The notes beneath the pieces are model-generated. The model saw only the letters and a list, made by a program, of their open reading frames with translations, made no database searches and was not told where the DNA came from. Both the position numbers and the translations under genes were made by a program. This document shows, in pieces, positions 3,617-37,773 of a stretch of DNA of 64,000 bases. This DNA comes from Bryopsis sp. KO-2023 (lineage: Eukaryota; Chlorophyta; Ulvophyceae; Bryopsidales; Bryopsidaceae): contig BSYQ01000013.1 of NCBI GenBank assembly GCA_030272585.1, positions 2,976,001 to 3,040,000 on the forward strand, given 5' to 3'. Within the stretch, counting starts at the first letter, position 1. Each line of letters opens with the position of its first letter.

Positions 3617-3724
3617 TGTGAAGGCCCCCGGATCTAACTGCCTCCCCCATCCAGGGCCGGCAGAGGGAAAAAAAAGAAAAACCCTCTGCCAGCCATTTAT
3701 TCCCCTCCCCTCTCCCAATTTCCT

Positions 3725-5324
3725 CTACTCAATGCAGGGCTCCGACCCTGCAAAGAGTTCCACCGCTGGCCGATCCTCAATGGGGACTGGAATGACCTCA
3801 CCCAGAAGTGGACTTTCGACTGTCCTCTGGGCAAGGCCGTACCAGTCGACTCCCCTGAAGAACGGATGCTGCTTCAATTCTGCAACAGTTGGCCTATATT
3901 CTTTCTTCACCTACACACCAATCCATTATTTCTGAGTTCCTTCCATCAGGGTTGGTCACTGCTGTCCATATGTTTCCATTGATCCAATTGAAGCCACTCA
4001 ATTTCTGCAGGTCTGTCCAGTTTAAAAGGATCGGCTGTCTCACCTGGAAGATGGAGGCAAAGAAGTTCGTAAGGCCAGGCCTTCCCTCCAAAAGGCTGCA
4101 AACCCTCCACATCAAGTTCACATAGCCCTGGTCTTGACCTCGGTCCTCCTGGTGGAAATTGGGGAACGGGAATCGGCCTATCAAGATTCGATAGACCAAT
4201 ACCCCGAATGCCCAAACGTCCGCCTCCATTCCCTCACCCCACCCGTAGGCGATTTCAGGAGCCTGTTCATGCCAAAAAATCCAATTGGTGTCAACGGTTA
4301 TGGCCAGAATTACTCCACCAGTGAAAGCCCCTACATTGTTCAGCAGGAAGATTATCCTACTGCAACTCTGATTGATAAATCTGGGAGCAAGGTGACTCGT
4401 GCATACCATGAAGCGGTGGTCAGGCGGCGAGGCTCGGGGGGTGTTGCGGGTGCTGGTGGCATGCCTGAGGTTCCCGAAAAACAGGAACCCCGGGCCAGAG
4501 ACATCAACATTGACTCTGTCCATGTTGATGTCTCTGTGCATTACCCCGCGGTAATGCAATGCCTCCAGTTGCAGCAGAAGGTTGGCCGCAATGAACCTGG
4601 ACGACCCACAGTTTGTTCAGTGTTATTGTCCCACAGCAAATATATTTCAACCCAAATGACGTCTTTTCCGACGTCTCCTATCCCAGCCAATTGCCAGGTG
4701 ACGTATCTGGTGACGTCTTGTCTCGCAAGCATGCTTTTACGTACCGGCAGACGGCAAGGGAACGCGACTGGCCAGCAGTGAAGTAGCTCCCCAGCTTTCC
4801 ACCAGACATCAAATCCTGCAGAAAGAGTCACAGCAAGTGAATTCAAAGGACGTCACTGGCAAGACATCAAAAAAATGACTCCACAACGAAATGCTGTAAC
4901 GAAGGTTAACCAGCTTTTGGTCTCATACTGATGATGAGGCGACTGCGTGAAGAGGGAATGCCAAGGTTCGAGCGAGTTCCGTCGCTGCGAACATTTCGCA
5001 GCCTCGCGGAGAAAGAAAGAGCGACAAGATTCAACAAGGCGTTCCTCTTACCTGTGCCGATGGGAGGACACAACTTCGTCGAGGACTTTCCTGGGCGGCA
5101 GTACCGATTGTTGGACTCGCAGGAGCAGAGTTGTCATCGTGGTTTGTGGCCACTTTCTCTGCTGAACTGCTTTCGGCCCTGTTGTGCTGATGCACATTGT
5201 TCGCTCCACCCTCCCCCTCATCTCCAACTTGGCGGAGGTTGTTGTTTCGCTGACGCCGCCGTCGGTTAACGAAGTGGATTATTCCACAAATCGTCACTAT
5301 GGCAGCGAACACCAACGCGCGCAT
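3725..5324 (-). CDS. Membrane-anchored pseudokinase C-lobe protein, copy A
   Basis: Exons (minus) are 5052-5324, 4745-4815, 4407-4596, 4044-4262 and 3725-3910. That gives 312 aa unspliced at the end, or 294 aa if a 54-nt segment (3748-3801) is removed as an intron. The N-terminus MRALVFAAIVTICGIIHFV is a signal anchor, followed by a basic stop-transfer and a polar linker. The next exon starts at a kinase hinge-like DLMSGGKLGSYF, so the glycine loop, VAIK lysine and alpha-C helix are absent. Then come GVMHRDINMD (HRD kept; catalytic Lys and Asn replaced), FFGNLRHA in place of DFG, APEIAYGWGEGMEADVWAFG (activation-segment end and helix F) and the terminal LKQHPFF motif. I infer a catalytically dead, scaffold-like protein at a membrane. 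The start was chosen because the upstream ATG of copy B is TTG here. Confidence 0.75.
3748..3801 (-). other. 54-nt in-frame exitron-like segment in copy A
   Basis: On the minus strand this begins GTGAGG and ends TTTGCAG inside the last exon. It is 18 codons with no stop, so the reading frame survives with or without splicing. Copy B lacks it: its end reads LLGKHCIE, against LLGSEPCIE for spliced copy A. The spliced lengths (294 and 293 aa) then agree almost exactly. Confidence 0.55.
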
Positions 5325-5452
5325 TCTGAAAGATCTGTCTGAAGTTCGAGACGTCGAAAGAAACCGTGCAAGGAGGCAGACAGACGTGTGTTTGCAGGTG
5401 AGTTTGCTTGGCGGAGAACTCGGGTTTTCTTGCTGCAGACCTCTTAGTCAAT

Positions 5453-5486
5453 TCTGGATATTACAGTCGTAGCTGTAATATCCAAT
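5453..5486. other. Perfect 12-bp inverted repeat at the duplication edge
   Basis: Arms TGGATATTACAG (5455-5466) and CTGTAATATCCA (5473-5484) flank a 6-nt loop. It sits where similarity between arms A and B ends. No protein or RNA family is recognised. Confidence 0.6.
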
Positions 5487-5638
5487 TGGTTACTCAAGCT
5501 TTCCCATTACTCATGACTGCTGAGAAGGAAAGGACAAAAAAAAGTACAAAGCAAATCATTATCAATTGCTGGTTTTACACCCCAGCTCTCCCTTCCTCAG
5601 AAAAAAAGGTTAAAAAAAAGAAAGAAAGAAGAAGAAAG

Positions 5639-5661
5639 AGGTCTTGCAAGTTGCAAGACCT
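5639..5661. other. 11-bp palindromic hairpin followed by a T-run
   Basis: AGGTCTTGCAA and TTGCAAGACCT are separated by one base and followed by GTTTTTG. It lies between copy A and the two-helix protein gene. The role is unknown; a short hairpin like this could be a remnant of a mobile element. Confidence 0.5.
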
Positions 5662-5835
5662 GTTTTTGCTGATCTGAGGTGCACCAATTTTCATAAAATT
5701 CACCAAACCTCATTCCTTTCAATTTGATTTTGAGTGAGATACGAGTCAGTTCACACCTCGAATAGAAGAATTAAATCTGGCACCTCTGTTCTTGCAGAAG
5801 ACCACCCTCCCTGTGAGAAACGCTGTGTCGTCGCA

Positions 5836-8800
5836 ATGGAGTCGGTCTGCATGGAATTGATTGCAGCACTGCACAAGGCAGGAAGATCTCTCGAGGAAAG
5901 CACCAAAAACTTGCGGGTGGCGTTCATCGGCTCGCGGGTCTCTGGCGGTCCTCCGTCGGATCTTTTGGCCGGGATCCTTCGCAGGTGCTTTTGATCTCGG
6001 AAGTGGGTTTCCACTTCAGGGAATTACTGATAACTTTTTTTTTTTCTCTTTTGCTTCTCCTCAGCATGACTGAACTGCTGTTTTCGACTCCATTTGGAAA
6101 TGGCATGCACCGCAATAATAATAATAATATGTTTCTGATTGAAATCTGAATTGTGATATTATGGAGTTCAAAACCAAATAAAGTGCTGCGCTGCTGTGTG
6201 AATTTTTCGAATTAGAATTTTTTTATTTTTCTGATTGTGCCTCTTTTGAATGGATTTTTTTGGAATCTTGATTTTTCTTTTTGATGGATATTTCAGCGCC
6301 TCCGTTTACAAAGATGGGATGCTGCCCTTGGAATCCAACCTGGTGGAGCGGGTTCGAAGATTCTGCGATAATTACACTGCTTTGAACTATTCCGATTTCA
6401 AAGCAATGAGCAAGGAAATTGTGGAAGAGGCCAAGGATAACCAGTAAGAAACTCCTCATGCATTTTTTTTTAATCTTTTGTTTTGTCGGAGCTCATTTTT
6501 TTTTCTCCTGTTTTTTTTCTTTTTTGAATAAATGAATGAATGAAAACAAGAATATTGGTTGGCATCTGATAACCAAAGGAAGGACATCTTCCATAATTCG
6601 TGATTCAGGTTCCTTCTTTTCTATATCGGCCAAAAATAAAAATAAAAATAATCAGAATTGAATTTATATTATTATTATTTCTTTCCTTTTTGTAGAGAAA
6701 TGAAAAAAAGTCTCCGGCAGGATTGAGTCTGTCCGTTTTTTTTTCCCACCAAAATTTTTCGAAAATTGAAAATGATTTCAGCACAGGAAAAAAAAAACGC
6801 ATTTGATTCTTACCTGTGATTTCATGCAATAGAAAACAACAACAGAAAAAACAAAAACCAAGCCTCCATCCTGTGGTTCTTTTGTTTTTCCTTTCGGTAG
6901 CATTGGCATTTTCCCCATACATTTTTTATCAACTTTACACACGCACCGTGCCCATTGCATTGTAGGTTATGATATGCGGACGGGTGTGTGCAGGAATTGT
7001 GCAAATATCGCAAAAAATCTGCACAAGGATATGCTGATCGAACTGAACCATTTCAAAACTCAACTTGGGGCAGATTATTCTGCACAACCCCCAAGAAATT
7101 TCATTGAAGGGAGCAGAGGTGTGGAAGGGGAAAAAAAAACACGACACTGAATAAAATTATTAAAATAAAATCAATGTTGAAATGCACATGTATGTGGATG
7201 TGTGTAGTGTTCTTATCATTTAGTCTATTTGATGGTGCCAGTCAAGATTTTCCCAAATTGGAAAAGAGAGAAGAAAATTCTGGGGGATTAGGTGTTGCAG
7301 CCATTTTGGCAACAAACTTGAAACCCAGAATAGAAAAGTTGATGCAAATTCAAAAAAAAAGAGAAAAAAAGATGAAGTTAAGGAGGGTTTCCTTTTTTTC
7401 TTCTTTCAAAAAATCCCTTGTTTTTGCTCTCTTTTAGTTTAGTTCAGTCTAGGTTAATTTCTTTCTTTTTTTGTTAAACCCCCTGTTTTCACTCTCATTC
7501 AGTTAAATTTCTGTTTTTTTTTTGTTTTTTTTTACAGTTCCACGTTGGTTGCTTTTCTTGAAACCCCACCCAAAGGACAACACATTGGTTGCTCTGATTT
7601 CAACGGGGGTTTCATTCACGACCGGAATCGTCCGTAGCATTTTCAGCAGCAGAGGAGCGATTTCACCACCAAGCGCCGTTCCCATGAATGCAACCACACT
7701 CAACGAGACCATGTCTTACAATCACACCAGAAAGTTGTTGCAAAATTCCGGGACGGGATGGAACGTCGAAAGCGTGGCGCTGGTTTTGGTGGTGTTTGGG
7801 ATTTCTTGGGCGACCAGTTCTTTCATTTTTAACAAGATGCGAGCTAGGAGGAGGAGCAGTGGAAGAAACGAGGGCGATTTTGAAAGGAGCCAGGATATGA
7901 ACGATGAAATGCAGACTTTGGAGGTACGATGGGATTTGGTGTGGCTGGCGTTGAATTGTTTTTTTTCTAATATATATGTTGGTTTCGGAGGGGCACTGTG
8001 TGCGTGTGCGTCTTTTTTTTGCATTTGTTTGTTTTTTTTTTGTTTTTTGCTTGTCTTTGAAATCTTTGTTTTCGAAAGATACAATGGTTTGAACATCATG
8101 ATAAGAAGCGAAACATCTTTCCAAAAATTAATATGCAAATATAAGAGAGAAAAAAAAGAAGAAAAAACTATATTTATATATATAAATATATTTATATATT
8201 CATTGCTGTGAACCAAAAAAAATAATAACAAATTTATCATTGGTTTCCATTGACTTCAGTCCTCAAGCTTTTTTTTTGTTCACTGCAAGGTTTATTATTT
8301 GAAGGGAAATCATTCTCTTCGTGATTCTTTGTTGTTTTTTTTATCTCGTCGAAAAAAAAAACACCAGGCTTTGCTGGAAGGATTGGAGGGTTTTGCCGTT
8401 GCGATGATTTCTGTTTCGAAGTTTTTCACCGAAATTGAGGAAGACTTGATGAGGTCTTCCACAGCCGATTCATTGCTGCAACAGCATTTCGAAACAACGA
8501 AAAAAATTGCACCAGAAATGCAACGAGCCGCACAGTAAGGAGGGCGTGGAAAAATATTCATCAAAAACTCACATGCGTGTACATGCGTTTCCATTTTTTT
8601 TTTTCCGACTTGTTTCAAAAAACCCTGTTGCTTTTCTCAAGTGTATGTTTGTGTGTGTGTTCTTTTTTGAGGGGCTCCTCGGTGAAACCAATCAGAAATA
8701 TTTCCACTGATGGTGGTTATCCCCCTATTTTTTTGCGCTTTTCTCAAGTTTTTTTTTTGTGAGTGTGTGTGTGGGGGAGGAGATCTTCGATGAAATCAAT

Positions 8801-8979
8801 TGGAATTCTTTTTTTTCCACTAATGATGCTTATCCCCTTTTGATTTTTTTTTTACTTCTGTTTTTTTCCCCAGAGTATTTCACCATCACAGTGTCAGTGC
8901 TGAGACTGACGTTATGTCTTCCACCGACACAACTGTACAGGATGATCGAGTTGCACAATTTTTAAGATTGAAAAGATAA
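5836..8979 (+). CDS. Unrecognised two-helix membrane protein with a sequon-rich loop
   Basis: Exons 5836-5984, 6297-6443, 6994-7118, 7538-7923, 8368-8534 and 8874-8979 join in phase to 359 aa. A 15-nt microexon (6065-6079, residues around MTELL) would also keep the frame and is optional. The N-terminal half is mostly helical and charged. Two hydrophobic segments, near NTLVALISTGVSFTTGIV and VESVALVLVVFGISWATSSF, bracket a loop with three N-glycosylation sequons (NAT, NET, NHT), suggesting a luminal loop. A basic RARRRSS stretch follows the second helix. The C-terminal half is again helical. The start could lie further upstream, since an acceptor-like site precedes 5796. I recognise no family; the membrane hairpin topology is inference. 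Confidence 0.7.
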
Positions 8980-9713
8980 AGTCAATATCAATATACCTTC
9001 TGGGAAACAACAAAAACAAAAAGAGATCAAAAAAGGACCAAAAAAACAGGCAGGTTGGAGGAGAGAAAAAAACTAAATTAAATTTGATGGATGTCGGGAA
9101 GGAAATCGATATCTCAGCATTGCCCTTGGCTGTTGTTTTTTTGCTTTTTCGAATTAGGGTGGGCAGCAGAAAAAGAAGGAAGGAAATGTATTATGTATTT
9201 CTCTCAAGTTTTATTAGCGCTTCCAAATTTGTCCATGTGTGGTAGGTAGGGTCGGTGGTTTTGGTGTTTTTTTTTCACTTAGTTTTATTGGAGGTTTTCT
9301 TAGAGGTTGATTTTGCTCTTGGCAATGTGTAATTTCCGATTTTGCGTTGTGTTGTTTGTTACTTGAATGTGACAGGGACTGGAAGTGTAGCAGGGCATTT
9401 TTCTTACAGAAATATGGTGTCCAAAACAAACCACCCCCCACTTCAAATACTCTCTGGATCAGATCTCCATCTGTTTTCTATTTGTTTGTTTTTTTGAATG
9501 ACTGATATACCTCTCCACCCTTGATTCGAGCTCAAGGAAAGTCCCTGGTCCGTTTCAGCTCAGTACAACAGTTGAGAATTGGGGGCTGCGTGGGACAACC
9601 CCCAGCCTCAGCCGCCAGCCAAGATTTTGTTCAAGACTCATAAGGGAAAGTCCAGTGTCGATTCAGCGCAGTCTGTTCCTTTCTGTTTTGGAGAAGTGTT
9701 ATCGTCACGATAA
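8980..9713. other. Intergenic, no gene seen
   Basis: This is the 3' flank of the two-helix protein gene, with A/T-rich runs and no recognisable coding or RNA gene. The open frame at 9214-9441 (minus) is low complexity. Confidence 0.5.
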
Positions 9714-9716
9714 CAT

Positions 9717-12248
9717 CCCAAATTTTCCGCCCCGACTTAAGTCGGGTTTTGAGTTGGGTAAAAGTCGGTACCGACTTTGCCCAACTTAAAGTTATACTTT
9801 CGAGTCAAGTGACTTAAGTCGATAAAAAGCTAGGCAGCTCATGTCGCTTGAAAGTTGGGCGACTCATGTTGAGATGGGAGCTGGGTGACTTGAGCCGAAA
9901 AACAGTTGGGTAGCTCATGTCGCTCAAACGTCGGGCGACTCATGTTGAGGTGCGAGCTGGGTGACTTAAGCCGGAAAACAGTTGGGTGACTTTTATTGGG
10001 GTGGAAGCTGGGTGGACTGCATTGTCACAATGAAAATGTTACAGGGGCTGCAACAATAACACAGACATTTTGGAGAGAGAATCTTACACAAGAATCCATA
10101 TAATACAATCAATACAAGCATCTTTATGTGAGTTGCAATCCCCAAAACATATTCAAGCCCAATCACGCACTTCTACAAGATCGTTCAAGTAAAATCTTCT
10201 TTCAGATTTCTTGATCCCCCTAATCCAAGCCGAACCATCAGAAAACTCAGCTTTTTTGTTATCCTTCCCAATTAGCACTTGTTTTCGTATTGCCCGTACA
10301 TCTATTAAAAAACAAGAATGCTCAAATCCCCTTCCGCTTTTACGCTGCTTCATTTCCCACTTCAAAGACCTCAATGTGATGGTGCCGTTTCTTTCCCCAC
10401 TATCTTCAAACCAACGCCCAAGGACCATATTTTTTTGATAATCTCATTGTGCTCACTCTTTGATGTGAGAGTGACCGTGAGCACAGCAGACACCTGAGTA
10501 CAATACCCAGACCAATGGTTTAGTTTAACTCTGCCCGGTTTGAAAATTTCCAAAGGCTATTCAATAGCCTAAATACTACAATGATTGTAGTGAATCTTAT
10601 AAAACACAGAAAAATAAAATGGAAAGAGGAAATGACAGAAACTATAAGCAAAATTACAAATTACACCCAGCAACTAATCAGCATTCTCTGGGCGTTTCTC
10701 GAATCCAGCTTGCTGAGTTACCGGGCATAGCAGACACTAAATGATAATGCAGTAGGATCTTACCCGTCACCACCTATCCATGATGGCATTATCTCCAGCA
10801 GCCTCCACCTCGATGTCGAATGGGCCCAAAGCAATTTTTCTTGGTGGGCTACTCAGGGTATGATAGCTCCGAATAATGTGTACCGTCGAATCTTCTTGTG
10901 GGATACCCAACATTGCCTTAACTTCAATCTGCAAAAAGTGTTAACCTTCTTAACAAATATCACAGGGATTATCTCTATGATAAATGACCAATCCTCAAGA
11001 ACATGCAGTGTACAAGGACAAGAAAAATTGGCAGTAGGACAAAATATATCACGAAACAACAGGATGAAGTTAGGATAACAAAAGCGACAGAGTACATACC
11101 CTGTACCTTGACATCAGCAACATCAGACCAGTTACACAAAGCGATATCAGGGATGCTGAAGGGAGGAACCTCCCACCAAGTCACGAGTTACAATCACAGG
11201 ATTGAGCAGCTCTCCTGCAATCTATCACACAGAATTTCAACACCAAGCAGCAGCATCTCCACAAGGCAACCACAACGGAATGGGCTCTCCCAGGAGGATA
11301 CATTTACAACCTCTTGTAAAGGGTTAGGGGAAGGAGTGAGGTACATGAACAAAGGAGGCCCTCCTGGGGGTCTACTCACCCTGGAATCGTCGCTGCTCAC
11401 CATGAAGGCACTCGGGCTTGCACCAGGACACGACCGGACATCGGGAGAACGGTCTCCTACCTGCAACACACACACACCACACGCTGAGGACCATTGCCGA
11501 TACGACGTGGACGGGACATGAGCGTTTGTCCCCGCAGCTGCGCTGGACGCTCCACCCTGGTCTCTCGGATACACCGCCGCCCCTGTTTGTTGCGACGTCT
11601 GGCTCCGTCGACGAAACCCGACTCCGGCGTCGACACTCTTATTATGGTTCCCTGTCTCGTCGATTGCAACACCAAACGATGATGGTACCACAGATGGTTG
11701 CTCCGTGACTGGGTATCTGCGTGACGGAATGATGGCTGGTACGAGGCGCGCTATTTTTGGGATCGTACTGTTCTGGATGCTACATCGTACTTAAGTTACT
11801 TAACTTCCCATCGGCGCAAAGTCGGATAACTCTCAGCCGCCCAAAACGTTGGGTAACTTAAGTAGACAAAATAGTCGCTGACAACCATTTTCTGACTTAA
11901 GTTACCTGGCTTCCCATCAACGCAAAGTGGGTTAACTCTAAGTCACACATCAAGTTGAATGGCTCAAGTCGATGAATAGTTGGTACTGACAATTTTATCT
12001 ACTTAAGTCAGTTGACGTCGACTCAAACAAATGTTGGTCAACTTTTAGTTGGGTGAACAGTTGATCAACATAAGCCGAAAAACAGCTGTTATCGACATAT
12101 GTTATTGATATGTCAATCGACTTTTTTACAACATAAGTTGATATCGGCTTTGTACTGACATAAGCCATGTAGCTTTTGATCAACTTTTGGCCGACTTTAA
12201 GTCAAAACCAACTTTTTTTTAGCTTAAGTAGGGGTCGGAAAATTTGGG
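9717..12248. mobile_element. DNA transposon-like element with long subterminal repeat ends
   Basis: The left end CCCAAATTTTCCG and right end CGGAAAATTTGGG are perfect inverted repeats, extending imperfectly to CCCCnACTTAAG. The outer ~320 bp on the left and ~470 bp on the right are built from degenerate iterations of ACTTAAG/GACTTAAGTCG and GCCGAAAAACAG motifs, including the 18-bp palindrome AAAGTCGGTACCGACTTT at 9761-9778. A two-base AT flanks both ends, but I cannot fix a target-site duplication. No transposase domain is visible inside, so it is probably non-autonomous. Iterated subterminal motifs are typical transposase-binding arrays in plant DNA transposons; the superfamily is not assignable here. 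Confidence 0.7.
10760..11691 (-). CDS. Possible multi-exon gene carried inside the TIR element
   Basis: Minus-strand open segments look exon-like: about 11463-11691 (ends in a CAG/GTAGGAG donor), about 11116-11184 (through IPDIALCNWSDVADVK) and about 10763-10930 (acceptor TTTTTGCAG, starting IEVKAMLGIPQEDSTVHIIR and running to a stop at MDRW). A further open segment lies at 10153-10428. I recognise no family and the joints are unproven. It could be a captured host fragment or an element-encoded protein. Confidence 0.3.
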
Positions 12249-12251
12249 ATG

Positions 12252-12550
12252 GTTGCTTTGCTTTGGACTTTTTTTTCTTCTGAAACTGGCCCTATTTTTC
12301 GAGAAGTGCAATGGACATGGAGCAACACTTCACGGATTTGCGAAACGTGGTTGCAACGCCCTTGGAGCTTTAACTGTTTTTGCTACAGTACAAGGATATT
12401 CAAGTCTACATGGTGGTCTTGTCGATTTTTTGCTCAGTTGGGAACAGCTAAGGCTCCAGTTTTCAGAAGTTTGTCTGACCCTTTCCAATATCTTTCTCAT
12501 TTTGTGCAGACAAAAGGAGGAAAAGGATCAAGCATAATAGTCCATGGGCA
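12252..12550. other. Sequence between two mobile elements
   Basis: This has a more balanced composition than most gaps. Open frames on the plus strand (12244-12668) run into the MITE and have no family motif. It may be a degenerate gene fragment. Confidence 0.3.
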
Positions 12551-12558
12551 GCGGGGAG
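12551..12558. repeat. Target-site duplication, left (GCGGGGAG)
   Basis: Identical to 13030-13037 on the other side of the MITE; an 8-bp duplication fits hAT transposition. Confidence 0.88.
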
Positions 12559-13029: not shown

Positions 13030-13037
13030 GCGGGGAG
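13030..13037. repeat. Target-site duplication, right (GCGGGGAG)
   Basis: Identical to 12551-12558. Removing the MITE plus one copy restores a continuous empty site. Confidence 0.88.
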
Positions 13038-23640: not shown

Positions 23641-25060
23641 TTTTTCCCCGAAGGGACTTCCAAAACAAGGATATTCAAAACTTTCACCGACACCAATATA
23701 TATTCATCTCTAAGCCAATTGTACTCGATACATCTTTCCCACTCTACGATATTGTTCGATTGATTACATTAGTCGTGGGACAAACTGGAATAGGACTTGA
23801 AAAAGGGTCTGTCGCTGTATGAACAATATCCGTTTCGACGCGTCACTATGAGTGTAATACGAAGGTGTTAATTGCCTTCAGTTACGAGTCTCCCCTTTTC
23901 TTTCTCGTTTCTACAAGTTGTTGTATGGGGTTCTTGAATTCGATGGTGGTGGAATTGCTACACAATGGGGGGTGTTCCATCTGAGATGTTTTCGATCAAT
24001 CTTTCCTTTTCTGTTGGAGGGTAAAGGCGGACACCCACCCACTGAGCAGATACCACGGTTACATCCTAATAAAATGGACCTGTGAGATGGTTTGCAAGTG
24101 AAAATTTTTACACATACATTATCATTATTTATACATTGTTGAAGGAATTCAGCGGTCCCAACCCCAGCCACACAGACACCCACTGAGTCGCCAGTCAAAG
24201 TTTTCAAAACCTCTGCCTTTGAAAAGCGAAAAGAGGTGGTTTGCGTCCACAAACATATTGAAGGAAAATGTTGTGAAAAAGGCAAAGATGCAACGACAAG
24301 CATCCCTTTTCTATTTCCAGTTGTGTAACGAACTTCCAAGTTAATTTTTGTTAATGTTTTTCAACAGAGGAAAAATCGTGGAAGAAAAGTCGTATCAAGC
24401 AGAAGCAGAGAAATACGTGAGCAAGTCCCCTGTCGGACTTGAGTTTGTTTGCGTGGGGGTGGGGTTGGGGGAAATCCAACAGCTAGTGCTGCCACCGATG
24501 GCTGTCAGCCCCAAACCAACTGTAGCTTTATTGTCAGCCCTTGCAACCTCAATTCCAACTGCACATTGGAGTTCCAGAAAGTTCTGTGAATGCATTTAAT
24601 ATGCTGAAAATGTCCCCTAAGTGGCACACAATCATGCGGCTTTAGGCCTGGCTGGGGATGTATGGAGCTACTGCCTTCTGGTCAACCGGATGTTGGTGGG
24701 CCAATTTTCCTTCCCATACCTTGGGGAGAACCCCAGTGTTTCACCAGCGTTTCGTGGTGCTGTGTGGAGGGTGTCGGGTGTCTGACACCAGTCAAGTTGC
24801 TGCAGGTCATCATGAAAATAAAAATGGCAGAAATTGAGGGATGTTGGAGTATGTCCAGAGATTAATGCAGGGAAGGGGGGCACTTAAGAATATGGCAGAA
24901 CTTCGGTCCATATTTTTTTCGTTCCATTTCCCCATCAGATATTTAAAAATGAGGGAAATCCACCATCGAATTTTTATTTTTATCGCAATTTTTTTTTTCC
25001 ATTGAGAAGTATACGCAACAGAAGGCAAACAAAACAACAGTAGAAAGATTACATATACAA
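23641..25060. other. Island of ordinary-complexity sequence in the homopolymer desert
   Basis: Composition becomes balanced here. A 142-codon open frame on the minus strand (23911-24339, includes KTLTGDSVGVCVAGVGTAEF) and a plus-strand frame at 24348-24599 have no family match I can name. It could be an unrecognised exon cluster or a worn repeat. Confidence 0.3.
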
Positions 25061-28000: not shown

Positions 28001-30894
28001 TTTTCTTTTTTGGGAAATAGGGAACATAATACAAAAAGTCAAAAGCTTGTCTGTTTTCTTGACTAATATTTGCGAAAACGTCTTTTATATGATAAGACTC
28101 CCCTTTTTTTCCCAATTTTTTTTCTTTTCCCTTAAAAAAAACAAACAGTTTTTGTGCAGCAAGCTTGTGGTTATATCCAAATTCCCCCCTTTTCACTTTC
28201 CTCAAAAACAAAACACATAAATCGTGTTCTAAAAAAAACCCCAACAAAAAAAAACACCCCTTTCACACAACAGAAAGCGATGCTAGCTTACTGATGTGGA
28301 GAGGTCAAAAAAAACAAAAAAAAACACCTTATCAACAAAAAAAAACCAATTAAAAACAAACAGGGGAATGTGTTACGTATTTTCTTCAAACTTTTTCCTC
28401 CCTTTTTTTTTTTTTTGGACGCTCTATCGATCAATCAATGCAGCCTTCTCCCAGTAAAGGAATTTTTTTTTCCTCTCTCTCTCTTTCACAAACCCTACTA
28501 TACCTTTTTCCATGTAGAAAAAAAAGTGCTATTTTTATATATATATATATAGATGTATAGATTCTTAATATAATGCAAAAAAAAAAAAGACCACATTTCC
28601 CACCCTTTTCAAATCTCTCCCACAATTCTCCCCCTTAAAAAACACATTCCGAAAAAAATCCATTAGCCTCTTTTTTTTTTTTTTTTAAAAGAACTCCCCC
28701 CCCCTCCCTTCTATTTTTCTTTTCAAAGTCTTTTCCGTCTTTTTTGCTTGTTCTAATTTTTCACACAGCTAAAAAATGCTTTTTCTTTTTTTTTTCTTTC
28801 TTTTTTAAAGGTATTTTGGGACCTAAAGGCTTCCCTTTCTCTCCCTTTCGGTTTTTTTTTTTCTTTTTTTACTTCTTGGAGGAAAATTTTTCCCGCCCAT
28901 TTTGAACCCCCAATTTTGCAACAATGAAAGTTTGAAGCAAATCATCCATGACTAATGCACTGTCAAAAATAGTATCGACAAAAATGCACTACCATGTTTT
29001 TTTTTTCCTCCACGATTTTGTTTGTTTTTTTGTTTGTTTTTTCAAGACGCAAAACAGACTTCAAAAAAAACCAGCCAAAACCAACAATATCAACAAAAAA
29101 TGCTCGCCAATCTTTAATTTCTTTCCTTTTCCCTATTTTTTCTTTTCTTTCTTTGTTCTCCTTCCCCTAAAAATAAAACCACCATTCCACTTGAAAGGGA
29201 AAAAAAAAAAAACAGCTTCAAGTTTTTTTTCTTTTTTTTTTTTGTTCTATTCATCGTCTCCTTGTGTAAACACAGCAAACCCTTCGAAAAAAAAAGAAAA
29301 AAAATACTAAGAAAAGAAATAAAACCAGCCTCTATAGACCTTTACAAATTTTCTCGCCCCTTCAAGACACCATGTACAGAATTTTGGATTCAGAGAGCCT
29401 CTCCTTCCGAAAAAAAAACTTATTTGTTCTTTTTATCCACACTCACCCCTCCTTTTTTTCTTTTTTTTTTTAAATCCTCCCTCCTGTTCCCTTGTCAATT
29501 GAACATCTCTTCATCCAAAAAATCTTTCCCTCCACAAATACACACACTCTATTTTCCTTTTTCTTTGAAGGGGTTTTGAAACAGAAGGGGGGGGGGGGGG
29601 CAATTTTCTATTCGGTCTTTGGTTCGATTCCCCTCCCCCCCCCCTCTTTTTCAAAAATTTCCCCTACAACTTCCAAAAAAGAAAAGAAAAATACACCCAA
29701 CACCGCTAGATCAAGAACAATTAATAAAGGTCCACATCTTCTTCTTCTTCCTTTTTTTTTTGCTTCTGAATTTCAATTTTAAATTTCCTAGAAAAAAATC
29801 ATAATATAGAAAGAAAAAAGGTCCAGCTTCAGCCAAAACGGTGATGGAGAACAATTTAATCATCAAAGGTAAAAACCCCGCCCCCCGTTTTTTTTCTTCT
29901 TCTTCTTTTCTTTTTTCTTCTTCTTAAACCCATTATCATACAAAAGGGACCAATCTTGTCTGGGTGGGTTGTTTTTTTCTTGATTTTTTTTACCTTTTTT
30001 TTCATCAACCAAAACCAAAGAAATATTTTCCCTTTAGTTTCTTTTTCCTCCCGCCTGGGCAGGAGCCAACAAAGAATGCGAAGGCTGCACAAAATGAACA
30101 TACCCTAAAATCAACCCCCCCTTGCCTATTCTGTTTTTAATTTCCCCACCACCCCCCACCTAAACCCCCCCTCTACAGATAGAGCGACCATTCTTCTTTC
30201 CCCAGCTTCTTTTCCTATATTCTCTTCCAAAATCTTCCCAACAATTTTTTTTTTCAACCCCTCGCTTTCTGCAATCTTTTTCATTGCCTTTTTAAATTCT
30301 TCTATTTTTTCTTTTCCACCACTTCAAATCGAAATTCAAATAAAAAGGCATATATATAACCCCACAATGAATATGATATTGCCATACATATTTTTTTTTT
30401 TCCATCTTTTTCCAAAAACTCCAAAGCGAAAAAACACCACCGAAAGGAAAAACAAAAGAAGGAAAAAAAAAAAGGCATTTGTACAAATTACTGATCTGAT
30501 CAGGTGATCAGGGGGAAAGAAAAAGAAAGAAGGGAAAACAAAAAAAAGAACCAAAACTGAAATAAAAAACGAAGGTCAAAAAAGAAAGAAAGGGAAAAGA
30601 AAAAAATCATGCCTGGTCCATGAACGAACACAGACAGATTTCACACCCGGAAAACCAAAAAAAAAAAAAAAGGAACAAAAATTCTAACAGATTTTCACCC
30701 AACCCCTTTTCTTTATTTCCTGGTTGTCCATGATTTCTTTAGTCTTTTTCCCTCTTTTTTTTCTTCTTCTCTTTTTTGTTTTTTACATTCTCTACCCCTT
30801 CGTTTTCTCGTTTTGTCTTTTTTCTTCCCTCCATCAAAAACCCCATCCGACCCCCGACCCCCCTCAGAAATCAGTTTCAAAACATCGTACATGA
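25061..30894. other. Gene-poor homopolymer-rich DNA, C over G on the plus strand
   Basis: T, A and C runs dominate and G-runs are rare, the opposite of 18600-23640. It lies 3' of the minus-strand kinase. No gene is seen; the frames are low complexity. Confidence 0.65.
27675..27749. repeat. Three tandem copies of a 25-bp unit
   Basis: CAATTAATCCAGCAATTGAG-type units repeat three times with one to four changes each. Each unit contains the near-palindrome CAATTnnTCCAnnAATTG. Confidence 0.7.
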
Positions 30895-32007
30895 TCACGA
30901 CAAAGGTACCTCCGCATCGGCGGTGGACGGCCCGCCGAACTCGACGACACTCGACGACGTCCGCGACATCTTCTTAAACAACGCGTGGCTCAGGGCCTGC
31001 GTCGCAGACATCCTCTTGTTTCGGTCACGCACCAGAAGGCTCTGCACGACGTCTTTCGCTTCATCCGAGACGTCAGCCCATTCCTCGCCATCGAACGAAA
31101 ACCCGAGGTGCAGTCCCACTTCCACGACCTCCCCACCTTCCATCTTCACGAAAGGCAATCGCCCCGACAAAACCTGATACATCATCACGCCAGCGGACCA
31201 CATGTCCGCTTCCACGCCGTAGCCTCCCAGATGCACCTCCGGCGCCATGAACAAGGGTGAACCAACCCGATGCCTCAAGCGGAGTCCGGGGACGACTTTT
31301 TGGCTGCAACCGAAATCAATCGCTTTGACGTCAAAGTCCTCCGTCAGCATGAAGTTGGCAGGTTTCACATCGCCGTAGCAAATTCCTCTGGCGTGGCAAG
31401 CTTCCAGAAATGCGAACACGCCTCGCATCGTCACCAGGACGTCGCTCTGGTCCATCGCCTCGCCTTGCGAAATCTTGTCCGCGATGCTGCCCCCCCGCAA
31501 GCGCTCCATCACGACGTACACGTACTCGTCGTCCTCGTAGGTCGCCACGAGCTCCGCCACGTTCTCGCAATCTCGGAGTTCCGACATCGTCACCGCCTCG
31601 GCGTGCAGTCGTTTCAAAGCCAGGGGATTCGCTTTCACGATATCGTCCTTCGCCAGCAATTTCACCGCGAACGTCTCGTCCGACGCCAAGCATCGAGCCT
31701 CGCAAACAACGCCTTGTTGGCCGGCTCCCAGAACCTTGCCAATTTCGTAATCCGTCGCGATTTCCGGCCTCCACGTCAGCGATGCTTTCGTGCACGCGTC
31801 GCCCTGAACGACGCCAGCTGCGGCTTGAAGTGGAACCATTCCGGCGCTTCTCTCTTGTCCTAGCCTTTGACCGGCCCCGACCCCACCAAATCTGGTCGAA
31901 ATCTTCTGACCGGGCCTGGACATCACCCTTGGACTCCGCTCCGCATCAGAACCGGGCTTTTTCGACACCATCCCCACCATTCCCGGCAAAACTCCAGAAA
32001 ACGACAT
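30895..32007 (-). CDS. Serine/threonine protein kinase, CAMK/CDPK-like, single exon
   Basis: An uninterrupted frame of 370 aa from the ATG at 32007; an in-frame ATG at 32040 would add 11 residues. After a ~85-residue basic, disordered N-terminus comes a complete kinase fold: GKVLGAGQQGVV glycine loop, FAVKLL lysine, alpha-C Glu in HAEAVTM, YVVMERLRGGS hinge, YGDVKPANFML catalytic loop, DFG in AIDFGCS, FMAPEV, and EADMWSAGVMMYQVLSGRLPF. The HRD motif is changed to YGD but the catalytic Asp, Lys and Asn are kept, so activity is likely. No EF-hands follow the domain, so it is not a full CDPK. It is the only intronless gene in the window and diverges from rbfA, sharing a ~550-bp upstream region. 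Confidence 0.9.
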   Translation of the reverse strand: MSFSGVLPGMVGMVSKKPGSDAERSPRVMSRPGQKISTRFGGVGAGQRLGQERSAGMVPLQAAAGVVQGDACTKASLTWRPEIATDYEIGKVLGAGQQGVVCEARCLASDETFAVKLLAKDDIVKANPLALKRLHAEAVTMSELRDCENVAELVATYEDDEYVYVVMERLRGGSIADKISQGEAMDQSDVLVTMRGVFAFLEACHARGICYGDVKPANFMLTEDFDVKAIDFGCSQKVVPGLRLRHRVGSPLFMAPEVHLGGYGVEADMWSAGVMMYQVLSGRLPFVKMEGGEVVEVGLHLGFSFDGEEWADVSDEAKDVVQSLLVRDRNKRMSATQALSHALFKKMSRTSSSVVEFGGPSTADAEVPLS

Positions 32008-32560
32008 AGTCACAATTCGCTCTTTTCGTAACAACCCCACAAAAGCAGGCTTTTTTTCCCTGGAACGCCGACGTCAGAGAGTACCCTTTCAAAATATCCC
32101 GACAATAACAGCGGGTTTCTCGTTTCGATAAGTGTATATTTTTTGATTTCCTTGGTGTTTTCCCGGAAGAGAAAAAAACTTCGAAAAATTCCAAGGGCTT
32201 GGCGAAAAAAATATGAAAAAAACAAACAATAAGTTGCTTTTTTTCCTTTTTCGCCGCGCCACGAAGTAGAATAAAAATCAGAAGACGCTCAAAATAATGT
32301 CTGCTCGCAAAAACTGAAAACACCAGAGGGAAGGTCGAGTAAATAGGTCGCCTGAGCTTTCGGCCAGAGACTGGATGCAATGACTGTACCAATGTCGTGT
32401 TGGAAAGATAGAGTGAGGAAGTGCGCTGAGTCCGTCAGGTCCGACATACGCGCTGAACGTTCGTTTTCCATCAAAGCGATTTGGTTTCAGTTATTTTCTC
32501 ATTTCGGGCAGGAACTCTGGGCGTTTTTTTTCTGTTTCTGGCAAGAAAAAAAAATCAACC
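32008..32560. promoter_or_regulatory. Shared divergent upstream region of kinase and rbfA
   Basis: 553 bp separate the two start codons, so the interval should contain both promoters and 5' untranslated regions. I see no clear TATA box or named operator. Confidence 0.5.
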
Positions 32561-35315
32561 ATGAGGGCGTCTCCGTACACCTTCAGCGGTGCGGGCTCGA
32601 CTCGGGGTGTGTATCGTGCGGCGAAGCTGAGTCCTACCAGCGCCGGCTCGAGATGCCCGACGCGAGCGAGACCCGTCAGGAGTTTCGGCGGCATTCCTGG
32701 TGTGCCTGCCATTTGGACGTGTATGGCATCTAGTTATTGTCGGAACCTAAACGAATCCAAAAAAGCATTTAAAGAATGAACGCTTACCCCGTAGAATCCA
32801 AACCTTGTCGAACTGATTCTGGTGTTATTTTTTTGCCCTTGGGACTTGTTGTATAGCTTTAAGAAAAAAAAAGCCGAAAAATTATCTGGAATATTTCCAG
32901 GTTTGACTGAAGGTGCTGTTGAAGGACTCCATTTAACAACCTTTCTTTCTTTTCGATTTTCCTTCAGGATATCGACGCCGGACTGCCAAAAAACAGCGAT
33001 GTGGTGCTGTTTCAATCACTTGCATGGTGGGTCGATTAATAAATTAAAAAAAAATACAAAATGGGGACACTCAGCATTAAAGACAATAGTCATATTTCCT
33101 TTAAACAAGGCAGAAAGCCTCATATTTCCCAGCTGCTGTGCAAATGAATGAACATGAGCCATCGATTCATTCAGTGAATTAATTATTAAAAAAAAAAAAA
33201 AAAAAACGCAACGATCATCGATTTTTTTCTTCCTTCATGTGATGGAGCATTCTTCTCCATCCTCGACATATTTCATCTTTCTGTTTTTTTTGTTTTATTT
33301 GTTATTTTTTAATTTTGACAGGGCAATCAAGTTCGTCAGGCTAGGGTTTCAAAACAGCTGGAGCGAGAACTCGGTAGAATCCTTGTTAGCGACAAGGTGT
33401 GCAAAAAGAAAATATAATGAGAAAAAAAAAGAAGAAAACAGTGAATTTATGTCAAATGAGCAAGACAAATTAATCGATGCAACAATCGAAGTAGTTGCAC
33501 AGGTGATGTTAATTCCTCACACATACAAAAAAAATGTACAGCTTTCTTCCCAGTCCCCAAATATAGGAGTTGTTTAAACTTTTTTTTCTTTTATTTTTGG
33601 GGAAATTGCTCTAGCTTGCTTATTGAGTATACATATACATATACATTATACATATTTGTAAATCCATGTGCCATTTTTGTGTAATGCATCAATATCATGC
33701 AATCTCGGCTCCAAGTGCTTTATCCTCTGGGAGGAAAGTTGCAGAACTACATACCCTTGCTATTTAGTTCAGTTTGACTTGCTGTATCCAGGTAGTTGCA
33801 AAAGCACTGCGTCCTCCGGGGGGGAAAGATTGCATGGCATCCATCACAGATGTGTGGGTGTCCGGCGATTTGCAAGTAGCTAAAATTCAAGTTTCCTTGT
33901 ACAATGCCAACGGAGATGATCTGTCGAGGCGGTTTGAGAAATTAGAGCCGCTGTCTGGGTAAGGATAGGTTTTTTTCCCCCTTTGCCGATAATTTTGGTC
34001 CAAAATCGCTGTTCACCCTCCTGCAATGGAAGAATAATATTTTTTAAAAAACTTATATATATAGATATAAAGTCTCAGAATTGAATTTCGGGGACAGGTG
34101 CTGTGTATGGATGGTGCAATGCATCTTGGCTAAAAAGAATTGGTCGAAAAAGACAGATGTTTTTTTTTTGTTGAAGGGGAACTAGCGAGGGGGGAGGAAA
34201 AAGTGTGGGAGTGAAAAAGTGTGAGTAGAGTGAGACATGTGAGACATCCAAATATAATTGTAGTTTATGTATTTTTTCCCTTTGATTATTGGTTGATTCA
34301 TTTGTTTGTTTGTTTTCGCTGCAGGTATATTCGGAAACTGGTGGGACAAAGAATGCATCTGAAACAGACCCCTGAGCTCAGATTTTTTTACAACGAAGAT
34401 TTTCAGCAAATGTTTAACGTGAGTCTCTTTCTGGTTGATTTTGCCGCTGGTGCTCTGTGCATTTTTTATTTTTTAAATAATAAAAAAATAAATAATCCTT
34501 TTCCAACCCTTTTTTTTCGTGTTTTTTTTTTCTTTTCGAAGTCGATGAACATACAGATTTATAAAAACATGGTGCAGCGTTTGTGTCTGGGAAAAAAAAA
34601 TGAGCCAAGCAAGATGTTTTGTTGATTGGCTGAGAATACTCGTCAATCCTCTTTTTTTTCTTGTTCTTTTGAAATAACGGCAGGTTTCCGCTGTAGTCTG
34701 ATATTCCTTGCATTTTTTTCAACTAAACACGTACATATGACATGAATTATGCAGATTCTACACTTTTGTTTTTCCCCCTCCTTATGGTAAAGACACACAC
34801 ACTATTGGTTGTGCATTCGTCTATCCGCACATATATAATATTTATATATATGAAAATATAGTTTCCTTTCGATTGCTTTTAAGTATGCATTGGAAAATGA
34901 CCTGCTCTTCTACCATCAGATCCTTCCACAAAAAAAAAGCAAAAATACTTTTGGAAAAGAATTCTGAACATTGGAGATTTGACAGGCACTTGAAGCTCTT
35001 CGATTAAGGGGCGAACGAGAAGGCGATGTCATGTCAGACGCACAAACCGAACCCGACATCGAAACCCTGGAAAAACCTGTGGCATCTTCAAAGACCCCTG
35101 TGTCTGACTCAGAACCGGTGTCTGACTCAAAGGAAGAGGAGGAGGAGGAAGAAGAAGAAGAAGGGGATTTCGTTCCTTTCCAGCAAGATTCGGAGGATGT
35201 GGGTCTAGCGTTTGCTGACATGTTCCCTGAACCTTCGCAGCGAAGGAACAAAGGCTTCGGCCGAAAAAAGAAGCCAAAGGAATTGTCCGGAAACAAAACC
35301 ATCGAGAGCTCGTGA
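32561..35315 (+). CDS. rbfA: Ribosome-binding factor A, organellar
   Basis: Exons 32561-32699, 32968-33026, 33322-33396, 33792-33958, 34325-34418 and 34986-35315 join in phase to 287 aa. RbfA binds the small ribosomal subunit and helps mature 16S rRNA. The first ~65 residues are rich in Arg, Ser and Ala with few acids, ending RRRTAKKQRCGAVSITCM, a plausible plastid transit peptide; mitochondrial targeting cannot be excluded. The RbfA core follows: QARVSKQLERELGRIL, CMASITDVWVSGDLQVAKI (the KH-like fold strand and helix), RKLVGQRMHLKQTPELRFFY, and EDFQQM. A ~95-residue acidic tail with a poly-Glu run and a basic GFGRKKKPKEL end extends beyond bacterial RbfA. The start ATG is in a CAACCATGAGG context. 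Confidence 0.88.
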
Positions 35316-36023
35316 TGTAAACGTCAGGACATTATAGGGATTTAGTCAAAAAAAAATCTTTCGGTTTTTTGGGTGTTGTTTTTCGGGAGCGAGGGGTGGG
35401 AAAGGAGTTGAGGGTTCTGGAGGATTGCTTCTTTGCTTCTTTTTTTTTTTCTTATTTCCAAAAAGCAGAATTCATTGTGAACAAATGAAGGCGCTTAACA
35501 AGATGATGCAACAATCGAATTTATCTTCTTGAAAGATGTTTTTTTGGGGGGAGGAGTCGGGGAAAGCATTCCAGGTGTAGGGTTTCAAGATCATTTGCCT
35601 GTCATGGAGGTAAATGAAATTGCTCCCAGCAGCATCTCTGTGTCTTTCAAAACTCCAGAAAGTCCTTCTGACTGTAATTCCAGCCAGTGCTCTCCCTCTC
35701 TGGAATAACATCTTGTTGGAAATGCGATTGGGAGTGTGTGGGACACACTCCTCCCTCCCTCCGAAACATTCTTCTCCAGATTGCTGTCCAGGAAAGAAGT
35801 TTAGCTGCCCCTGTGTGGATGAGGGGGAATGAATCTGGGTGCCCTCCATTCTTTTCCTTTATGAGCTGCAGGCTTGATAGGACAGCTTTGGGCGTAAAAC
35901 ATAAGAAAAACGCCCACATCATTTCGATTTTCCACTGTTTAACGTCAAACTGGTTCTTGTGATTCTCGCCCACTGAAGTCGAAGCCGAGAAGAAGTTGAG
36001 AAACGTCGTCAGAAATCAGTCAG
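35316..36023. other. Intergenic between rbfA and pseudokinase copy B
   Basis: It contains the rbfA 3' untranslated region. A 125-codon minus-strand frame (35472-35849) has no recognised motif. No RNA gene is seen. Confidence 0.45.
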
Positions 36024-36168
36024 CTAAGACATGACTAAGAGTGCTGCAGCAAGCAAATTTTATAATATCCAGCCCTCCGCGCAAGCAAACTCACCTGCGA
36101 CCAGCGAACAGAAGCCAACAAGCACACCTTGCAAAAGACTTTTCGATAACTGCACAGAGAGAACCAGT

Positions 36169-37656
36169 ATGCGCGCCCTTGTGTTCAGCGCTTTCCTCAC
36201 AATCGGAGGACTGTTTACGATTGTGAAATGCGTCAAGCATAGATGGGGGCGACGACCTTCAGACAGCCCACCAAGTTCTGAAGCGTCTGAGGGTGAAAGC
36301 AGCGGAATTCGTCCGCACGGACCCAAGAGCAGTTCGCCCAGAGCTGACAAAGTGGAGTCACACCACACTGGCTCCGCTCAACCCCGGAGTCCAACCATCA
36401 GGGCTGCGTTGCCGCCATGTTCCGTCCTACCATTCGCCGAGGTAAGAAGAGCGCCTTGTCGAATCTTTCCTCCCTTTTCTTTCCCCACCAAAGAGTATTA
36501 TTCAAGCGAGTCTCTCAAAATAGACACGGGCGACGTTCTTTGAATTCACGAGCTATGACTCTTTCAGCAGGATTGCGTGTCTAGAGTGCAGCTGGGGAGA
36601 CACTTCGCCGCCGGGCATTCGCAATCCCTCGCCATGGTCCGGTACGCAAAAGCACCTGCGTTTGAAAGTGCATGCTTACGACACAGGACGTCGAAATAGA
36701 CGTCACCTAGGAAGATGTTGTTTGTTAGAACAGGAGACGTCGGATAAGATGTATTTTGGGAAGAAGTGTGTTTGGTGCGGGACAATAACACAAGTCAAAA
36801 TGTGGTTTGCCCAGGTTCATCGCCGCCAACTTGTTGCAGCTGCTGGAGGCATTGCATCACCGTGGGGTGATGCACAGGGACATCAGCATGGACTCTGTCC
36901 ATGTTGATGTCTCTGGCCTGGGGTTCCTGTCTTTCGGGAACCTCAGGCATGCCACCAGCACCCGCAACACCCCCCGAGCCTCTCCACCCAACCCCCACTT
37001 CATGGTACGAACGAATCACCTACTGTCTTTGTTGCTTCCAGATTTGTCAATCAGAGTTGCATCATCTTGTTGCTGAATAACAATAACAATATGCTGGAGC
37101 CACTGATTCAATTGATGAAAAGAAAGGGTTCACAGGATTGAAGCCACCCAGTGAATTCTTTGGCATGAGCAGGCGCCTGAAAACGCTTATGGATGGGGTG
37201 AGGGACTGGAGGCAGACATTTGGGCGTTGGGTGTCTTGGTCTATCGAATCCTGGTAGGCCAATTCCCCTTCCCCAACTTCCATCTTGATGACCGTGGTCG
37301 GGAGCAGGCCTTCGTGAACTCGCTGTGGAGGAGCGGCAGCGTTTTCGACGGGAGGCCTGAGCTGACCAGCTTCTTCGCCTCCATCTTCCAGGTCAGACAA
37401 CCGGTCAATCCATTCAAACTGAACTGATCTGCAAAAACTTTGAGTGGCTTCAATTGTATTAATGGAAACATGGATTGCGACGACCAACTCTGAGGAAGGA
37501 GCTAAGAAACAATGGATTGGTGTGTAGGTGAAGAAGGAGGACAGGGCCACCATCGCCGACCTGAAGCAGCACCCATTTTTCCGGGGGGTCGACTGGTACG
37601 GGCTTGCCCAGAGGACTGTTGAAAGTCCGCTTCTGGGTAAGCACTGCATTGAGTGA
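36169..37656 (+). CDS. Membrane-anchored pseudokinase C-lobe protein, copy B
   Basis: Exons 36169-36441, 36571-36641, 36815-37004, 37173-37391 and 37528-37656 give 293 aa. The first four exons have exactly the lengths seen in copy A (273, 71, 190, 219 nt). The signal anchor MRALVFSAFLTIGGLFTIV and basic KCVKHRWGRR are followed by a Ser/Pro-rich linker, then a kinase C-lobe without an N-lobe: RGVMHRDISMD, SFGNLRHA in place of DFG, APENAYGWGEGLEADIWALG, and LKQHPFFRGVDWYGLAQ. An in-frame upstream ATG at 36031 exists but is TTG in copy A. Second-exon residues differ strongly (DCVSRVQLGRHF against DLMSGGKLGSYF), so hinge-region constraint looks weaker here. Splice sites and frame are intact, suggesting it is expressed. 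Confidence 0.75.
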
Positions 37657-37773
37657 GGGGAATCGGGGGGGGGGGGGGGGGGGGGGGAATAAAGGGCCGG
37701 AAGAGGGTTTTCCTTTTTTTTTCCGTCTGCTGGCCCAGGATGGGGGAGGCAGTTAGGTTCGGGGGCCTTCACA

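Follow-up and report, generated by a model that had tools for sequence, protein, structure and literature searches.

We describe here two genes in a 64,000-nucleotide stretch of the genome of the green alga Bryopsis sp. KO-2023 (contig 13, positions 2976001-3040000, hereafter the window; the genome comprises 91.1 Mb in 28 contigs), each predicted to encode a hydrophobic N-terminal segment and linker joined to the C-terminal lobe (C-lobe) of a protein kinase, with no N-terminal lobe (N-lobe). The two copies, A (minus strand, 5324-3725) and B (plus strand, 36169-37656), are mutually inverted and have five predicted exons each; all eight introns are bounded by GT-AG, both frames are open, and the predicted products are 312 (A) and 293 (B) residues long. 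In both, as a preliminary description of this DNA had it, the exon after the anchor and linker starts at the kinase hinge, and the gene models contain no glycine loop, catalytic Lys or alpha-C helix. That description also gave the copies identical exon lengths and open frames. The frames are indeed open, and exons 1 to 4 are equal in length (273, 71, 190 and 219 nt), although for exon 1 the equality arises only through compensating indels, and the last exons differ (186 nt in A, 129 nt in B, which is 57 nt shorter). Intron 3 of A (4263-4406, minus strand) is 144 nt long and open in the frame of the neighbouring exons, and its retention would add 48 residues; the corresponding intron has 168 nt and a stop in B, and 170 and 155 nt, neither a multiple of three, in L039 and L043b, two further copies described below.

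The two products match the kinase profile PF00069 (cut-off 31.7 bits) at 65.4 bits (A, E = 7.1e-18) and 66.8 bits (B, E = 2.6e-18), with alignments that run from profile position 78 (A) or 79 (B) to position 263 of 263; because the matches begin there, the N-lobe is absent from the gene models and the two-lobed domain is incomplete. The best 60 of the 1564 structure chains matched by A at E <= 0.1 are all kinases of what we take to be the AGC group, namely PKC, PKG, GRK2, PKN2, RSK, CBK1, Akt, Greatwall and PKA, and the best 60 for L051, a relative that has an N-lobe, comprise AGC chains, a small number of unnamed kinases and three Aurora chains. Judged by these matches, the C-lobe of A and B is AGC-like. 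Canonical kinases are recognized by the HRDxK motif, a catalytic-loop Asn and the DFG motif. HRD survives in both copies, as was first reported, and the Lys that follows is replaced by Asn in A, L039 and L043b and by Ser in B. In place of the catalytic-loop Asn, A carries Arg, and B, L039 and L043b carry Ser, rather than the Asp that had been proposed; the Asp in question occupies the preceding Glu position. The Asp of DFG is lost, as the preliminary description stated, but its reading of the motif as FGN holds only for an ungapped alignment: with a one-residue gap the position reads FFG in A and, in the same register, SFG in B and FLG in L039. Structural residues are kept, namely the APE Glu, the alpha-F Asp (ADVW or ADIW) and the late Arg of RPT or RAT. 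The hydrophobic motif of the AGC C-terminal tail, FxxF, docks on the N-lobe; by inspection the tails of A and B, which extend 24 and 5 residues past ESPLLG, contain none. The marks of an active kinase are thus missing from both copies (N-lobe absent, HRDIN or HRDIS, Asn changed to Arg or Ser, DFG Asp lost), and with kinase homology retained and catalytic motifs lost, A and B are pseudokinases by the sequence definition of the term.

Coordinates of the features of copies A and B and of a related relic in the window
Feature	Position	Strand	Remarks
A exon 1	5052..5324	-	signal-anchor-like hydrophobic stretch ALVFAAIVTICGIIHFV, basic NRRRRQR, low-complexity linker; 17-residue hydropathy (KD17) 2.56
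A intron 1	4816..5051	-	236 nt; site of the N-lobe exon in relatives
A exon 2	4745..4815	-	hinge and alpha-D, DLMSGGKLGSYF...
A exon 3	4407..4596	-	alpha-E, HRD loop HRDINMDR, degenerate DFG
A exon 4	4044..4262	-	APE, alpha-F (ADVW), alpha-G/H
A exon 5	3725..3910	-	RPTVAELKQHPFFRGVDW; stop after EPCIE
A inverted repeat, 19 bp	4496..4536	-	one mismatch, 3-nt loop; encodes catalytic loop
A hairpin	3587..3618	-	predicted 3' untranslated region
B exon 1	36169..36441	+	signal-anchor-like stretch, linker
B intron 1	36442..36570	+	129 nt; too short to hold a 246-nt N-lobe exon
B exon 2	36571..36641	+	degenerate hinge, DCVSRVQLGRHF
B exon 3	36815..37004	+	alpha-E, HRD loop HRDISMDS
B exon 4	37173..37391	+	APE, alpha-F to alpha-H
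B exon 5	37528..37656	+	HPFFRGVDW
B inverted repeat, 19 bp	36875..36915	+	imperfect; encodes catalytic loop
B hairpin	37772..37803	+	predicted 3' untranslated region
Relic of APE exon, subfamily 2 relative	24615..24782	+	in-frame stop

A and B were first presented as paired genes, but they belong to a larger family. Genome searches and exon-level comparison, in which only the best candidates were scored so that family counts are lower bounds, located at least six copies of the N-lobe-free type (S1) on contig 13: A, B, L039 (about 2.749 Mb), L040 (about 2.808 Mb), L041a (about 2.884 Mb) and L043b (about 2.949 Mb). The bare C-lobe layout is common to all six and the frames are intact in five. 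L039 and L040 are segmental duplicates, 99.7% identical over 7.45 kb, with an identical product, and L041a is cut short within the lobe, the middle of its catalytic exon being joined to the last codons. An unrooted tree built from ten C-lobe sequences sets its four S1 members apart from the others with an approximate likelihood-ratio test (aLRT) value of 99.6 and ultrafast bootstrap (UFBoot) support of 100, and S1 copies differ from one another by up to 25% over the C-lobe protein. In relatives on contigs 13 and 14 the anchor and hinge exons are separated by an exon for the N-lobe. These relatives are L041b (about 2.889 Mb, subfamily 2, every frame open), L042 (about 2.931 Mb, N-lobe exon present and 3' part lost), L044 (about 1.441 Mb, broken by an insertion and by a stop that interrupts the catalytic exon), L051 (contig 14, about 1.914 Mb) and, weakly, L054 (contig 13, about 0.14 Mb). 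Fragments of the family are found as L043a (subfamily 2), as L047 (with stops) and within the window itself (24615-24782).

The relatives with an N-lobe are also degenerate in their catalytic residues. L041b has LRN in place of HRD and DFS in place of DFG; L051 keeps HRD, has Ser at both the Lys and the Asn positions, and reads DLG; L054 is degenerate too. Both L041b and L051 have, by eye, a Lys at the expected beta-3 position. A different type is L057 on contig 15 (about 630-633 kb), assembled from pieces joined by eye, which combines a hydrophobic N-terminus and linker with GCGAFG, ALK, HRDVKLEN and DFG, and in which N-lobe and hinge share one open frame. It is 34-36% identical to four S1 sequences over the C-lobe and, on grounds of similarity, could plausibly represent the active ancestor, its placement in the tree being weak (48.4/63).

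The hydrophobic stretch encoded by exon 1 begins at residue 2-3 and extends for about 17 residues, with a 17-residue hydropathy maximum of 1.54-2.56 at residue 3 in the four S1 proteins, and a net positive stretch follows it in all seven of the S1, subfamily 2, L051 and L054 proteins examined. Under the positive-inside rule, basic residues after a hydrophobic segment favour a cytosolic C-terminus. The product would accordingly be expected in the membrane with its C-lobe on the cytosolic side, since the basic residues come after the hydrophobic stretch.

The N-lobe-free layout appears to be the derived one, because relatives in the same cluster retain the N-lobe exon. In L041b and L042 this exon is 246 nt long, in phase 0-0, and lies between the anchor and hinge exons, so that its removal or skipping preserves the frame. 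Intron 1, which occupies its place in S1, measures 236 nt in A, 129 nt in B, 241 nt in L039, L040 and L041a, and 236 nt in L043b. The introns 1 of four S1 copies can be aligned with one another (62-83% identity over ungapped columns), with which a single loss of the exon fits. With the catalytic residues of L041b, L051 and L054 degenerate while the N-lobe is still there, inactivation probably came before loss of the N-lobe. Comparison of intron 1 with the subfamily 2 N-lobe protein gave no match in the five copies compared, in which 34-167 of 200 shuffles reach the score. Against the N-lobe protein of L051, the score was reached by 1 (A), 2 (L041a), 7 (L043b), 14 (L039) and 46 (B) of 200 shuffles, and in a rerun with 1000 shuffles by 6 (A), 29 (L043b), 54 (L039) and 193 (B), the nine other introns of the same genes reaching 112-926 as a control. 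The best segments of A, L039, L041a and L043b are homologous and count as one observation; the one in A is similar to the alpha-C/beta-4 region of L051's N-lobe. At the DNA level the four introns 1 score no better than 79-699 of 1000 shuffles, which gives no support for a remnant. There is thus a hint that the segment is a decayed N-lobe remnant rather than a coding exon, and for that reason we do not claim a clean deletion. A hidden N-lobe exon in intron 1 is rejected on the shuffle scores, on the lack of codon periodicity and of an internal 0-0 exon common to the copies, and on the mere 129 nt available in B. An N-lobe encoded upstream of exon 1 is unlikely to judge from the relatives, which carry theirs between exon 1 and the hinge exon.

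Selection was assessed on the four S1 copies that are both intact and distinct from one another (A, B, L039 and L043b), L040 being dropped for its product identical to that of L039 and L041a for its truncation. The resulting six pairs share sequences and are not independent, and the p-values for third positions are uncorrected. The ratio of nonsynonymous to synonymous rates (dN/dS) between copies, which the preliminary description had suggested computing, is 0.20-0.30 over the C-lobe in all six pairs by the NG86 method, and not near 1; over all codons it is 0.27-0.38. By part it is 0.28-0.69 in exon 1, 0.26-0.52 in the catalytic exon, 0.11-0.23 in the APE exon and 0.05-0.24 in the last exon. 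Third-position changes are in excess over the C-lobe in 6/6 pairs (p <= 1e-4) and over the APE and last exons together likewise in 6/6 (p <= 8e-4). Of the 25 gap runs in exons, 23 have a length divisible by three, as against 16 of the 74 in introns, and exons 2-4 are free of gaps in every pair. Neutral simulation along the tree left none of 1000 runs free of stops, with a mean of 21.8 stop-making changes. These data support purifying selection at the protein level on the exons from APE to the end, above all on alpha-F to alpha-I. The proposal that the truncated layout is selected, and not a stage of decay, is supported for the lower C-lobe, by dN/dS, third positions and indels, but not for exon 1 and the catalytic exon.

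The stretch that encodes the catalytic loop is an inverted repeat in the S1 copies. The repeat spans 19 bp with a 3-nt loop, pairing perfectly in L043b and with a mismatch or G-T pairs in the two window copies, A and B; the L039 version has 18 bp and a loop of 5. In none of these four copies was its score reached by any of 200 codon-shuffled exons. L041b and L042 have a weaker repeat at about the same place (2 and 4 of 200 shuffles), L051 has none at the catalytic loop and one elsewhere in the exon (9/200 shuffles), and L054 scores 4. The breakpoint of the truncated L041a coincides with the centre of the repeat, and the synonymous rate (dS) is low in the catalytic exon. It is possible that the altered catalytic loop arose by templated (quasi-palindrome) mutation. 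A second conserved structure, a GC-rich hairpin, lies downstream of the stop, and 13 sites within 3 mismatches of the query were found in the genome (0 in the control), the 11 besides A and B being on contigs 13 and 14. Its stem is invariant in 13/13 sites, in an alignment built with a stem-fixing pattern and from a search that, at <=3 mismatches, would miss more diverged sites. Eleven of the 13 sites are at family members, and the other two, L052 (contig 13, about 2.546 Mb) and L053 (about 2.666 Mb), are in inverse orientation and 98.8-99.8% identical in three blocks. In L052 the hairpin is preceded by a tail, ...CATTGAGTGAGGGG, that, on visual inspection, could be what is left of the last codons, which suggests that L052 and L053 are 3' relics of the family; no kinase exons were found upstream of the hairpin within 5.1 kb (L052) and 5.4 kb (L053) at i-E 1. 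Rfam at gathering thresholds gave no match within the window.

The window contains several other features. An open frame at 30898-32073 (minus strand) encodes a complete kinase of another kind, with YGD replacing HRD and an intact DFG, that is 21-22% identical to S1 over the C-lobe. At 1-1529 (minus strand) is a spliced light-harvesting gene, joined by eye, whose product has a transit peptide without a signal for the endoplasmic reticulum (ER). Its best solved relatives are two multi-domain chains of light-harvesting complex I (LHCI), followed by chains of light-harvesting complex II (LHCII), among them 8hlv, titled Bry-Lhcb1 (siphonaxanthin LHCII), and its mature part resembles Bryopsis LHCII. 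A unit of 102 bp is repeated in tandem about 30 times at 41624-44624, and a 24-nt tandem repeat of about 7 copies (62490-62651), flanked by a 294-nt direct repeat of 90% identity, lies inside the open frame 61728-63392 (plus strand).

The explanation that we favour, at a probability of roughly 0.6, is that A and B belong to a lineage-specific family of membrane-anchored, AGC-derived pseudokinases, one clade of which has lost a single N-lobe exon and would use the C-lobe as a binding module. It builds on features of the predicted gene models: the exon anatomy, the N-lobe-bearing relatives, the frame-neutral exon phase in two of these, the S1 split and the constraint on the lower C-lobe. The ancestor may have been an active, anchored AGC-like kinase such as L057 that subsequently lost catalysis; the N-lobe would then have become dispensable, and its exon could have been deleted or have decayed into the intron. 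Acting without ATP, the C-lobe may present a binding surface made up of alpha-F to alpha-I and the HPFF..DW region, and the likeliest role would be that of a scaffold, or of a competitive decoy for the partners of an anchored AGC kinase. The more specific proposal, that a kinase C-lobe by itself forms a stable, selected, membrane-tethered binding domain, which arose by frame-neutral exon loss in a dead AGC-type kinase and was then multiplied, with its catalytic loop overwritten by a palindrome, is tentative, and we place it a little short of an even chance.

Several observations weigh against this family of binding modules. For exon 1, and likewise for the catalytic exon, a third-position excess (p < 0.05) is seen in just 1/6 pairs, so that little selection is visible on the linker and the former active site. 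The hinge exon, with 23 codons, has NG86 dN/dS values of 0.09-1.10, highest in the pairs with B, and for B and L043b over all codons one maximum-likelihood fit gives an omega of 0.89, compared with 0.37 by NG86 and 0.28 by YN00. In some pairs the similarity of introns and untranslated regions is on a par with that of exons, and synonymous and intronic rates disagree; between A and L043b, for example, introns 3 and 4 have similarities of 0.90 and 0.93 and exons 3-5 of 0.88-0.92. In copy B the hinge is degenerate and the tail shorter, and L041a is truncated. Exon 1 likely encodes a membrane anchor, an assignment made by hydropathy alone, and L057 differs from S1 in having an acidic stretch (net -3) after its hydrophobic segment.

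One alternative is a decaying cluster, in which the copies are remnants or expressed pseudogenes, the truncated layout is a stage of loss, and similarity reflects recent duplication and gene conversion. The broken members L041a, L042 and L044, the fragments and the relic-like L052 and L053 are in keeping with such a history, as are the introns that match exons in similarity in some pairs and the linker and catalytic exons without a third-position excess in 5/6 pairs each. However, decay accounts poorly for five frames that remain intact, with GT-AG introns, in copies whose C-lobe proteins differ by as much as 25%, for the third-position excess over the C-lobe in every pair, for indels that preserve the frame, or for the failure of any neutral simulation to stay free of stops, and we regard it as unlikely. 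Alternatively, selection could act chiefly on nucleic acid, the inverted repeat and 3' hairpin serving for instance as a source of small RNA or in mRNA control, with the protein mattering less. The repeat of 18-19 bp in 4/4 distinct intact S1 copies, unmatched by any codon shuffle, the low dS of the catalytic exon and the unchanged stem at 13 sites all speak for this; but in the APE and last exons the excess of third-position changes points to constraint on the protein, the repeat is missing at this place in L051, weak in L041b and L042, and scores 4 in L054, and a stem invariant among the sites found offers no covariation. We consider selection of this kind quite improbable as the main explanation.

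The N-lobe could instead be supplied from elsewhere: from an alternative exon that escaped notice, through trans-splicing, or by a separate N-lobe-bearing relative that joins the C-lobe in trans to give a two-part kinase-like protein. The L041b gene and the L043a fragment, both of subfamily 2, lie upstream of S1 genes on the same strand, and the intron 1 segment of A (6/1000 shuffles) could be taken in the same sense. Yet the four strong N-lobe matches among 57, in a search restricted to the best candidates, sit at members with a C-lobe of their own, intron 1 of B is too short, and the introns 1 have neither a common 0-0 exon nor codon periodicity; moreover, an added N-lobe would not restore a canonical site, given that the C-lobe no longer has its catalytic Lys, Asn and DFG Asp. 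We consider a supplied N-lobe extremely improbable. A last question is where the C-lobe resides, since exon 1 might encode a cleaved signal or an organelle-targeting peptide and the C-lobe might be lumenal, secreted or organellar, an arrangement compatible with a binding role. The position of the hydrophobic stretch at residue 2-3 and its length of only about 17 residues would suit such a peptide, and a separate exon for peptides of this sort is common. The net positive stretch after it in 7/7 proteins examined, with L057 as the exception, argues for a cytosolic C-terminus, and the light-harvesting precursor has, by eye, a transit peptide without a hydrophobic ER signal, so that a bipartite secondary-plastid signal is not expected and it is unlikely that exon 1 directs the product to a secondary plastid. 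We regard a targeting peptide of some kind as fairly unlikely.

The nearest known systems resemble the S1 proteins in part. AGC kinases (PKC, PKG, GRK2, RSK, Akt, PKA) are alike in C-lobe sequence from the hinge to HPFF..DW, and A and B differ from them in lacking the N-lobe, the catalytic Lys, the HRDxK Lys and Asn, the DFG Asp and an evident hydrophobic motif, and in having a hydrophobic N-terminal segment added. Within the same genome, L057 has the hydrophobic N-terminus, linker and kinase of S1, but with a glycine-loop N-lobe and its Lys, HRDVKLEN, DFG and the acidic stretch, and L041b and L051 share with S1 the anchor, hinge, catalytic, APE and last exons and the same 3' hairpin, but retain the N-lobe exon. 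Tribbles, PEAK, PAN3 and titin kinase have a two-lobed domain.

Pseudokinase scaffolds such as Tribbles, PEAK, PAN3 and titin kinase use an inactive kinase fold for binding (PMC8141879, PMC4042850), and kinase folds are credited with non-catalytic roles as scaffolds and competitive inhibitors (PMC8141879); that account of pseudokinase scaffolds, in its accessible portion, describes no C-lobe-only form (PMC8141879). EssB of type VII secretion is a membrane protein with a pseudokinase-like cytoplasmic domain (PMC3694306), which we liken to S1 by description and not by sequence; it differs in being bacterial and two-lobed, with its membrane segment after the kinase-like domain. A decoy role like that suggested here for S1 has been proposed for the degenerate kinase domain of plant tandem kinase-pseudokinases such as WTK1 (PMC6170490). 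The BRI1 kinase domain minus its N-lobe, a laboratory construct, was expressed in E. coli for pull-down, and the N-lobe is called the unstable part of that domain (PMC8263706). Like S1 this construct is a bare kinase C-lobe made as a protein, although it is artificial, derives from a receptor-like kinase and bound the tested partner more weakly; because it could be expressed and the N-lobe is described as the unstable part, an autonomous C-lobe is conceivable by analogy. Phrase searches of the open-access literature found, among the papers listed, no natural kinase family consisting of an anchor and a C-lobe only; other journals or wordings may contain a precedent. One scan of viral contigs, sensitive to close relatives only, found no viral relatives of copy A.

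Kinase folds are usually regarded as two-lobed units. If the S1 copies are dead genes instead, they are an ordinary case of tandem decay. If the family of membrane-anchored pseudokinases proposed here is real, a C-lobe-only group beside two-lobed relatives that share its exon borders would reveal in what order the events took place, with catalysis lost and then the N-lobe, and the family would offer a test of the kinase C-lobe as an autonomous binding domain.

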